From the NCBI GenBank assembly GCA_004193595.1, contig RPGQ01000044.1, forward strand, positions 1 to 64,000: a stretch of 64,000 bases of DNA, written 5' to 3'. The notes beneath the pieces are model-generated. The model saw only the letters and a program-made list of their open reading frames with translations, made no database searches and was not told the DNA's origin. Positions 16,740-57,274 of the stretch are shown here, piece after piece (position 1 is the first letter of the stretch; each line of letters opens with the position of its first letter). The translations under genes were made by a program, and so were the position numbers. Origin of the DNA: Desulfobacteraceae bacterium Eth-SRB2. GTDB taxonomy: Bacteria; Desulfobacterota; Desulfobacteria; Desulfobacterales; UBA11574.

Positions 16740-16999
16740 TAATTAAACGTCTCGGAAATTCTACAATTTATTGGAAATAAAGGTATCTTTTAGGCTTATA
16801 TTTTTAACTCGGACATGGAATAATGGAATGATGGAATATTGGAATAATGATTTAAAGAAGATGACATTCCTCTATTTACTTCCTATCAAGAGGAATTTTA
16901 CAATAACCCAACTTTCCATTTTCCCAAAACCCAAAACCCAATATTCCAGTGTTCCAATATTCCAACATTCCAATTGTGAGCGAAGCGAACTAACTTGTA
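16740..16999 (+). repeat. ATTCCA-type dispersed hairpin repeat, copy 1
   Basis: Begins TAATTAAACGTCTCGGAAAT and contains tandem TGGAATAATGGAATGATGG on the left and the complementary ATTCCA-type repeats on the right, so the whole can fold into a long imperfect hairpin. Related copies are at 32919-33073 (inverted), 51592-51802 and, partly, 47900-48115. It fills the gap between hdrA and mvhD. Confidence 0.7.
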
Positions 17000-20628: not shown

Positions 20629-20810
20629 GGGTGTAAATCAAGACTGTTGTTTGCTAAGATTGCCATGGCTATTTGGTGTCAGGTTTCAGGTGTCAGCTAA
20701 TTCGTTTCTTACTCCTGACACCTGACACCTGACACCTGACACCTGACACCTAAAAAAAGGGCTTCGGAGCAACGGTTTGTCAATAGACAAGGATCAGCGT
20801 TTACCAACGG
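20629..20810 (+). mobile_element. TGTCAGG hairpin element, copy 1 (right end lost)
   Basis: Starts GGGTGTAAATCAAG and contains heptamer repeats of TGTCAGG that pair with five CCTGACA-type repeats. It then has GGGCTTCGGAGC...TTTACCAACGG, and stops before the expected right inverted terminus CTTGATTTACACCC. It ends two nucleotides from the stop codon of the convergent formyl-hydrolase gene. Confidence 0.8.
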
Positions 20811-20812
20811 TC

Positions 20813-21733
20813 TCACTTATCGAACATATCTCCGACCTTAAGCCCCTGTTCAGCAGCAAATTCGGCGGCGGCGACTTTTTTGCCTTTGACCGGCCGGACT
20901 TTACCTGCCACAAGTTTTGCTCCGGACACCGCCACATGAATTCCTTGATCGTCAACGGCGAGAATGGTTCCCGGAGTTTTATCGGTACTTTCTTCTATGA
21001 GCCGTGCGCCATAAAAACGAACCTTTTCACCGTTTAACAAAGCAAAGGCACCGGGTTGGGGATCGCAACCGCGAACCAGATTGTATAGTTCTCCGGCCGG
21101 CTTTTCCCAATCAATGCCCGCAACTCGGTCATCACAGGGAGGCTCATAAGTAGCACCGGCTTCATCCTGAGCTATTTCGGGGGCCTTGCCTGCTTTGACA
21201 AGGTCGATGGATTCGAGAATGGCATCAACGCCCATGGGAAAAAGATGGTTAAAATAAAGGGCGCCGGTGGTGTCATCCGGACCGATCTCGATCTCTTTCT
21301 GAAGTAAAATAAGCCCGGTGTCAATCCCCCCGTCCGGCCAGAAAATGGTCAGCCCGGTTCGGGTGTCCCCCATGATTACCGCCCAGTTAATGGCACTGGC
21401 GCCGCGATGGCGCGGCAAAATCGAAGGATGATAATTTATGGTCCCGTGAGTGGGGACCTCAAAAAAACGCGCCGGGATAATATCGGTCACAAAAGCCATG
21501 ACCGTGAGATCCGGTTTGAGTTCCTTGTACTCGGCAAATACCTGATCATCTTTATACGTTGCCGGTTGAAAGACGTCAATTCCTTTGGATACCGCCGCAT
21601 CTTTGAGCGGATCAGTCCGCCCTCCCGGTCTGTCCGGTGGCAGATAAACCCCTATTATATTTTCGTTTCTTTCCAGCAGGCTTTCCAATACTTTTGCCGC
21701 AAATGCCGCCTGTCCAATCAGTAGGATACGCAT
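20813..21733 (-). CDS. 10-formyl-tetrahydrofolate hydrolase/formyltransferase-like protein
   Basis: 306 residues; ATG 21733 with AGGAGG 6 nt upstream. Formyltransferase fold with INYHPSILPRHRGASAINWA and the catalytic Asp in GGIDTG, followed by an FMT C-terminal domain. The wording around these motifs, including DKTTG-like variants and LLQKE, is closer to the N-terminal 10-formyl-THF hydrolase domain of ALDH1L1 than to Met-tRNA formyltransferase, but there is no aldehyde dehydrogenase domain. The likely reaction is 10-formyl-THF to THF plus formate, or transfer of formyl to an unknown acceptor. Its position beside a formate dehydrogenase in a Wood-Ljungdahl organism is suggestive. Ordinary fmt remains an alternative. 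Confidence 0.75.
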   Translation of the reverse strand: MRILLIGQAAFAAKVLESLLERNENIIGVYLPPDRPGGRTDPLKDAAVSKGIDVFQPATYKDDQVFAEYKELKPDLTVMAFVTDIIPARFFEVPTHGTINYHPSILPRHRGASAINWAVIMGDTRTGLTIFWPDGGIDTGLILLQKEIEIGPDDTTGALYFNHLFPMGVDAILESIDLVKAGKAPEIAQDEAGATYEPPCDDRVAGIDWEKPAGELYNLVRGCDPQPGAFALLNGEKVRFYGARLIEESTDKTPGTILAVDDQGIHVAVSGAKLVAGKVRPVKGKKVAAAEFAAEQGLKVGDMFDK

Positions 21734-26082: not shown

Positions 26083-26163
26083 TGTATGTATGGGAGCATT
26101 ACCGATTTGTTAAAATGGTTTTCACCCATTAACTTATTCATTTTTTGAGCGAAAGCCTTGCAA

Positions 26164-26222
26164 TCAGGTTTCAGGTGCCAGCGCCTCTGTTCATCATTCC
26201 TGACACCTGACACCTGAAACCT
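26164..26222 (+). repeat. Solo TGTCAGG hairpin
   Basis: CAGGTTTCAGGTGCCAG pairs with the CCTGACACCTGACACCTGAAACC stretch. It has the hairpin core of the 20629 family without its termini. It occupies most of the usable space between sfsA and the next gene. Confidence 0.6.
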
Positions 26223-26365
26223 TAAGATATGGAACAAAAATGGGATTAAAATTCCATCTGTATACATGGCGATTTTCACCACCCCAGTTTGTGCCCATTC
26301 ATAAATCTATAAAGGTCACAAATTATGTTGAGCGGTAAATACTGTATAAAGAAGTAAAAATCAAT

Positions 26366-38894: not shown

Positions 38895-38921
38895 TTGACT
38901 CTCCTTTGTATAATCTTCTTT

Positions 38922-39106
38922 GGGTATAAATCAAGACTGTTCTTTGCTGAGATTGCCACGGCTATTTGGTTTTCAGGTGTCAGGTTTCAGATCTTCAAGT
39001 TTCTCGGCCCTGACACCTGAAACCTGACACCTGAAAAAAGGGCTTCGGAGCCACGGTTTGTCGATAGACAAGGATCAGCGTTTACCAACGGCCTTGATTT
39101 ACACCC
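38922..39106 (+). mobile_element. TGTCAGG hairpin element, copy 2
   Basis: 185 bp from GGGTATAAATCAAG to CTTGATTTACACCC. Flanks ATCTTCTTT (38913-38921) and ATCTTTTTT (39107-39115) agree at 8 of 9 bases, suggesting a 9-bp target duplication. The hairpin core is CAGGTGTCAGGTTTCAG against CCTGACACCTGAAACCTG. Confidence 0.8.
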
Positions 39107-39118
39107 ATCTTTTTTTTA

Positions 39119-42866: not shown

Positions 42867-42923
42867 GAAAACGCCTTTTCACGAATTCATCAAATATTAC
42901 ACTTTTGTTTAACCGTCAAGAGT

Positions 42924-43315
42924 GGGTGTAAATCAAGACTGTTGTTTGCTAAGATTGCCATGGCTATTTGGTTTCAGGTGTCAGGTGTCGGGTGTCAAGA
43001 GGCATACAGCCATGAGGGAACGATTCATCATTTACGCCATACACTGCCGTTTCCTCAGCTAACTGCCAGCGGCGTTCTCGCTCTGGGACTTTCCGCTCCA
43101 ATGTTTTCTCCAATCCATTCAACAAATGTGTAAGCGACTCAACTTTTTATAGACCTCAAGATCCTCCACGTCCATATAATTGCTATTGGTCGGCCCGTTT
43201 GCCCCTTAACCCTGACACCTGACATCTGACACCTGACACCTAAAAAAAGGGCTTCGGAGCCACGGTTTGTCTATAGACAAGGATTACGGTTTACCAACGG
43301 CCTTGATTTACACCC
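42924..43315 (+). mobile_element. TGTCAGG hairpin element, full-length copy 3, with 9-bp target duplication
   Basis: 392 bp from GGGTGTAAATCAAG to CTTGATTTACACCC, flanked exactly by GTCAAGAGT at 42915-42923 and 43316-43324. The hairpin arms (TTTCAGGTGTCAGG and CCTGACACC-type repeats) enclose about 200 bp absent from the 182-185 bp copies, including a fragment of a four-helix-bundle gene. Confidence 0.9.
43119..43175 (-). pseudogene. Fragment of a four-helix-bundle (IVS-type) protein gene
   Basis: Eighteen codons from ATG 43175 read MDVEDLEVYKKLSRLHIC then stop. This resembles the conserved N-terminus of four-helix-bundle proteins encoded by 23S rRNA intervening sequences. The frame then breaks. 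It lies within the loop of the full-length TGTCAGG element. Confidence 0.55.
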
Positions 43316-43444
43316 GTCAAGAGTCCTTTTCCAAGAACTGCTGAAGAGTCGGGAATAAAAGAAAAGTTTATCGCACGGAAGGATAAGGGAGTCATGCCCA
43401 AGGCGGCACGCCGGATAGGTACCGCCTTTCGTTAGAAATAGGTT

Positions 43445-47899: not shown

Positions 47900-48115
47900 T
47901 CCCGCTTCCAGCGGGGCAATATTCCATCATTCCATTATTCCATTATTTTTATCTCGCCTGCCCTGCCTGCCCCCTATCTCCGGCAGATGGTACCGGGGTT
48001 GGTCCCCGTATGGAAATACCGGGACAGAGTCGGCAGATCGTACGGGAGTGATTCTTTTTTTCTATTTTATTGGGGCCATGTCCGAGTTAGAAACATAGGC
48101 CTAAAAAATATGGTT
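47900..48115 (-). repeat. ATTCCA-type dispersed repeat, divergent copy
   Basis: Contains ATTCCATCATTCCATTATTCC and, at the other end, CATGTCCGAGTTAGAAACATAGGCC, matching the inverted 16790-16850 segment. The centre is unrelated. Small CCCGCT..AGCGGG hairpins flank it. It fills the gap before tolQ; no gene is seen there. Confidence 0.55.
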
Positions 48116-57127: not shown

Positions 57128-57274
57128 GGAGTACTGGAGTACTGGAGTATTGGAGTGGTGGAGTAATGGAAGAAACCCCTTTTTTCATCGCTCTCAGAAA
57201 ACAGATCCCTGGAGAAAATCTGAAAATTTAAAGCTCTTTTTTTTAAATCAACACTCCATTACTCCAGTACTCCG
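57128..57274 (+). repeat. GGAGTA-type hairpin repeat
   Basis: Tandem GGAGTACT/GGAGTATT/GGAGTGGT units on the left are answered by ACTCCATTACTCCAGTACTCC on the right, giving a long imperfect hairpin with a roughly 80-bp loop. It has the same design as the ATTCCA family with another unit. The rest of 57055-57456 holds no gene. Confidence 0.65.

Follow-up and report, generated by a model that had tools for sequence, protein, structure and literature searches.

A probable MITE with nested intervening-sequence-like cargo in the genome of Desulfobacteraceae bacterium Eth-SRB2

The window analyzed here is a 64,000-nucleotide stretch of the genome of Desulfobacteraceae bacterium Eth-SRB2 (contig RPGQ01000044.1, positions 1 to 64,000). 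At 42924-43315 it contains a repeat element whose inverted ends match exactly over 14 bp, the left one (GGGTGTAAATCAAG) at 42924-42937 on the plus strand and the right one at 43302-43315 on the minus strand. Exact 9-bp target duplications, GTCAAGAGT/GTCAAGAGT, flank the element at 42915-42923 and 43316-43324. Inside it, a left arm of four TGTCAGG-type heptamers (42970-42997, plus strand) pairs in the predicted fold with a right arm of CCTGACA units (43211-43241, plus strand), and the predicted folding of the whole element beats that of shuffled sequence on both the minus strand (z of –6.7) and the plus strand (z of –6.3). A short GC hairpin (GGGCTTCGGAGCC) comes after the right arm. Between the arms, at 43006-43175 on the minus strand, lies the remnant of a four-helix-bundle (PF05635) gene, recognized from its translation, from an intact homologue in genome G080 and from PF05635 matches in sister copies. 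Its N-terminal 17 codons (MDVEDLEVYKKLSRLHI) extend from an ATG at 43175 to 43123, its C-terminal piece (LNGLEKTLERKVPERERRWQLAEETAVYGVNDESFPHG) starts at 43122, and about 90 codons have been deleted internally between the two; the gene fragment is genuine but scrambled. These findings bear out a preliminary description of the locus, which had proposed terminal inverted repeats, a 9-bp duplication, TGTCAGG hairpin arms and a loop fragment of a gene of the 23S rRNA intervening sequence (IVS) type. An Rfam search of the window returned no match.

Two further copies in the window, both on the plus strand, keep the arms and lack the loop gene, as had also been noticed earlier. The one at 38922-39106 (185 bp; 38913-39115 including the duplications) is complete and is flanked by its own 9-bp target duplication, whose two copies differ at one position (ATCTTCTTT/ATCTTTTTT), and the one at 20629-20813 retains its left end and has lost the right 14 bp. 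All window copies sit between protein genes, not in a 23S rRNA gene. Another repeat, at 26160-26290, lacks GGGTGTAAATCAAG ends; its arms are of the TGTCAGG type, it has an end resembling GGGGTGGTGAAAATCGCC, and in genome G006 it adjoins an intact four-helix gene (L467). A hairpin at 16815-16974 contains no gene and has arms made of 8-bp repeats (ATGGAATA / CCAATATT); single arrays resembling these arms occur at 47920-47947 and 57128-57170.

Across the genome (5.26 Mb in 83 contigs), the end pattern occurs 147 times at no more than one mismatch and a reversed-pattern control 0 times, so its frequency is far above chance. About 0.39 Mb around these ends, window included, was rebuilt and elements were delimited from it, yielding 50 elements of family A (98–804 bp) and a second family, B, of 17 uniform members, most of them 184 bp long. 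Target duplications of 9 bp (at most one mismatch) flank 37 of the 67 elements, 24/50 in family A and 13/17 in family B, compared with 0.5 and 0.8 matches, respectively, when flanks were randomly re-paired. Flank matches at 5–8 and 10–13 bp were absent, with the exception of a single member of family B that matched at 7 and 8 bp. No transposase reading frame was found inside more than 60 elements of 98–804 bp. The family thus combines three features of MITEs, namely inverted terminal repeats, a target duplication of fixed length, and short, multi-copy elements with no transposase gene, and it is a real non-autonomous DNA transposon. The end consensus, GGGTGTAAATCANGRCTGTTGGT, is common to several MITE families in the order.

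Several family-A copies have themselves received insertions. A MITE-like insert of another kind, with ends GTGTCCRTCCATAAATGG, is nested at L088 (G000:C19:65066-65869), L180 and G000:C9:108760-109073, and an insert starting GGGCTCACTCAAAAATAACTTCACATTTTGGATGCC is nested in the loop of two family-A copies (G000:C68:56976-57520 and C5:39660-40198). The element copies at G000:C47:10383-10759 and C50:183229-183605 are identical, target duplication (CAGAAGCTG) included; one of them is near a contig end, and they probably represent either a single locus that was assembled twice or a duplication.

The ends are conserved well beyond the window, with dozens of copies and a presence in 19 of 291 genomes of the order. 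Among a 395-genome phylum sample the pattern matched this genome only, which suggests that the family is restricted to this order, as it seems to be. Plasmids gave nothing relevant, and viral contigs only chance-like matches. The preliminary description had recommended looking for an autonomous partner with the same termini. None, that is, no transposase with these ends, was found in what are mostly draft metagenome assemblies; long repeats collapse in such assemblies, and the transposase absence and some junctions are therefore uncertain. The search for an autonomous copy via distant end pairs with a 9-bp duplication, run across all loci collected, gave just the 804-bp MITE with a nested insert. 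IS256 was rejected as the parent transposon, PF00872 having no match in this genome or in G149, a complete genome with a related MITE.

Comparison within the order separates the ends from the interior. One MITE of genus g49 comes in several forms, namely 105 bp long with no hairpin (G251), with the TGTCAGG hairpin (G195) and with extra insertions in that hairpin (G063, G278 and G251), and clean target duplications occur among the copies of each form. The ends therefore transpose independently of hairpin and gene. G251 (the 105-bp copies), G149 and G175 have elements that share these ends and duplicate 9 bp but contain no such hairpin. The same left end is also combined with TGGAGTA-type heptamer arms (elements at G000:C5:225666, C12:59089 and C5:256842), a heptamer that recurs beside a four-helix gene at C76:47231, and a third repeat family, with ends like GGGGTGRTKAAAATYGCC, bears the same TGTCAGG-type arms. 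Palindromic inserts lie nested inside the g49 TGTCAGG hairpin at L340 and L358 (G063), L498 and L500 (G278), and L508, L511 and L515 (G251), so that hairpins build up inside hairpins; one such insert bears CTAATGG-type repeats. A candidate case of hairpin loss at an orthologous site (L512 vs L360) was discarded, since L360 has a differing right flank that may be a misassembly.

The PF05635 (23S_rRNA_IVP) profile matches 27 places in the genome. About 14 family-A elements contain such matches, all partial or broken and larger than the window fragment, and an intact 157-aa four-helix gene lies between ends of this kind in G080, a genome from a different family within the order (bit scores of 82 with PF05635 and 77 with TIGR02436). 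The search for full genes between end pairs, also recommended earlier, thus found one intact and many decayed, and the gene is repeatedly linked to the ends. Related genes, 77–88% identical and mostly intact, are found elsewhere in the order between TGTCAGG-type arms and without transposon ends; the sister genome G006 likewise has an arm-flanked gene without them. These stand-alone relatives are under purifying selection, with a median pairwise dN/dS of 0.08 among intact genes (20 pairs where estimable). Viral contigs contain no four-helix relatives, and the structural link to Xanthomonas S23p is a weak sequence match only (2gsc, E of 0.016).

These data bear on how the parts belong together. 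The earlier suggestion of an IVS-like element rather than a MITE holds for the cargo, which is of IVS type; it is not supported for the whole because the ends occur without the hairpin and gene-plus-arm cassettes occur without the ends, the shell being a MITE and the modules separable. It is very improbable that ends, hairpin and gene form one IVS-like mobile element in which the four-helix protein drives its own transposition: four-helix genes do recur within the ends, including the intact one in G080, but the 105-bp copies have clean duplications and neither hairpin nor gene, intact cassettes stand without ends, and the gene is broken in this genome's copies. It is the MITE shell that bears the marks of transposition, and the IVS-like part is cargo. 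A plain MITE whose interior is filler, with four-helix similarity and heptamers lacking a common history, is scarcely credible. Most copies have no open gene and MITEs are often palindromic, but full homologues score far above the PF05635 cut-off and are under purifying selection, and homologous genes sit between the same heptamer arms with no MITE around them.

Because intact TGTCAGG-armed relatives exist without transposon ends, we consider it highly likely that the element is modular, a MITE having captured an IVS-like cassette that then lost its gene and kept its arms. On the simplest reading, the cassette of gene and arms would be the older unit and its capture by the MITE secondary; TGTCAGG arms occur in many TIR families of the order, so that it is the stand-alone intact genes, and not a rooted tree, that indicate which way the capture went. 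Retention of the copies as host regulatory or terminator hairpins, with mobility only a matter of history, would account for their intergenic position in the window, their strong predicted folds and the short GC hairpin after the right arm. We judge this improbable, given that copy length ranges from 98 to 804 bp, that many copies have clear 9-bp duplications and that their positions are, as far as seen, not conserved across the sampled genomes.

The association of four-helix genes with inverted short repeats extends beyond the TGTCAGG cassette. Full-length PF05635 genes outside family A in this genome are mostly flanked by degenerate 7–9-bp tandem repeats (GGTTCAC, GAACATC, TGGAGTA, TTGACCA and others), usually inverted across the gene. 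We scored such arms by aligning the upstream flank locally to the reverse-complemented downstream flank, for 79 genes drawn from the best-scoring matches in this genome and the phylum sample (mostly Desulfobacterota). The median score was 19 vs 9 for mismatched pairs, 43 of the 79 genes exceeded the 99th percentile of the control, and 0 of 53 window genes used as a control reached 18. Since arms were chosen by their match, the independent evidence is their periodicity: the paired arms of the 43 positives repeat at lag 7 (0.60), compared with 0.22–0.35 at other lags. The upstream arm was G-rich in 33 and C-rich in 8 of the positives (p = 1e-4). The heptamer differs at nearly every locus, yet the paired arms match, which for this reason resembles covariation but may also reflect how arms arise. 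Among 11 genes of cyanobacterial plasmids with the annotation "four helix bundle" or "S23", 7 had an arm score of at least 17; mismatched pairs reach 23 there, and the weaker scores are not decisive. Four-helix genes are commonly flanked by inverted arrays of ~7-bp repeats whose sequence is locus-specific.

Plasmids of related cyanobacteria also differ in the presence of these blocks. Between nrdB and nrdA, a Nostoc edaphicum plasmid has a 494-bp block of arms plus gene where a Calothrix plasmid has 13 bp; Nostoc sp. MS1 has a 477-bp block that Trichormus variabilis lacks, with a clean junction; and plasmid pn4 of Nostoc UHCC 0926 has a 485-bp block where three relatives have a different 61 bp. 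Arms and gene are jointly present or absent at these three sites and therefore behave as a unit. At a fourth comparison, on plasmid pn3 (L541 vs L547-L549), the gene alone differs and arm-like flanks remain, which fits a gene deletion that left the arms, an insertion being possible too; loss of the gene with arms left behind is plausible both there and in the window. Cassettes of this kind occur between genes in many other bacteria, in some strains and not in others. An alternative is that the arms do not delimit a mobile cassette, being repeats prone to recombination or slippage that grow once inserted, as might be argued from the heptamer differing at nearly every locus and from the L541 comparison, which differs in gene size and not in the arm. 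We consider this unlikely: arms and gene are missing together from the three related plasmid sites, and an arm match across the gene is far commoner than in control genes.

A model based on our data is that the 42924-43315 element is, very probably, a non-autonomous DNA transposon (MITE) with nested IVS-like cargo. A transposase acting in trans, putative here, would cut and insert the GGGTGTAAATCANGRCTGTTGGT ends, duplicating 9 bp of target. The cargo, with its observed anatomy of a PF05635 gene between inverted 7-bp arrays (TGTCAGG/CCTGACA), would be transcribed into an RNA predicted to fold into a long hairpin with the gene in its loop. The cassette would predate its capture; in most related genomes it stands alone, and its gene there is often intact. 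Once within the MITE, it would be copied passively, the gene decaying through internal deletion and the arms staying, which would give the short arm-only copies. In the stand-alone state, the four-helix protein could bind the hairpin of its own transcript and aid persistence or spread of the cassette; for 23S rRNA intervening sequences such a protein-hairpin role has reportedly been proposed, short of demonstration.

More tentatively, we put forward as a possibility that intergenic S23p/IVP genes with inverted heptamer arms represent a widespread and largely unrecognized class of transposase-less mobile cassettes. Such cassettes might move via the RNA hairpin, for which the Avd-like four-helix protein may bring in a reverse transcriptase or some other factor of the host. 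On this view, heptamer hairpins that lack a gene would descend from the cassettes as non-autonomous forms, and the sub-class that landed in rRNA would be the 23S rRNA intervening sequences. Our search of the open-access literature returned no earlier description of intergenic four-helix genes with heptamer arms, a study of Coxiella burnetii being the nearest (PMC4990558). What our analysis adds is an IVS-type gene within stem-forming heptamer arms, located between ordinary genes, varying among relatives and captured by a transposon. Comparison of such loci allows insertion sites, empty sites and ends to be read straight from the sequence, and the cassettes could be the origin of some heptamer repeats that lack an explanation in cyanobacteria and other bacteria.

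Intervening sequences of 23S rRNA are excised by RNase III, and Avd is the four-helix accessory protein of diversity-generating retroelements. Like other MITEs, the window family is short, lacks a transposase gene, and has inverted ends, a duplication of fixed length and tens of copies; it differs in carrying a captured four-helix cassette with heptamer arms. It shares with the 23S rRNA intervening sequence of Coxiella burnetii a PF05635-type gene that forms the loop of a long stem of inverted repeats (PMC4990558), the S23p/IVP four-helix protein being coded by the intact homologue, with only a remnant in the window, and the long stem around the gene following from predicted folds and matched arms. 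The Coxiella S23p gene also has tandem heptamers (GACAGAT) upstream, Xanthomonas S23p is a ring-shaped pentamer, and intervening sequences, whose origin and mobility have been an open question for decades, were earlier suggested to be mobile (PMC4990558). In contrast to them, the window element lies between protein genes, inside a MITE with a 9-bp duplication. Avd belongs to the same protein family as the cargo gene (PF05635, listed in PMC10053308); inspection by eye of the translations in the window revealed no reverse transcriptase gene beside its copies. Finally, the TAACTGA arrays of Beggiatoaceae are likewise 7-bp tandem units in intergenic DNA, described in a paper in which S23 or helix-bundle genes go unmentioned (PMC4679880). 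Nearly all of those are direct repeats, whereas the arrays described here are inverted around a four-helix gene.
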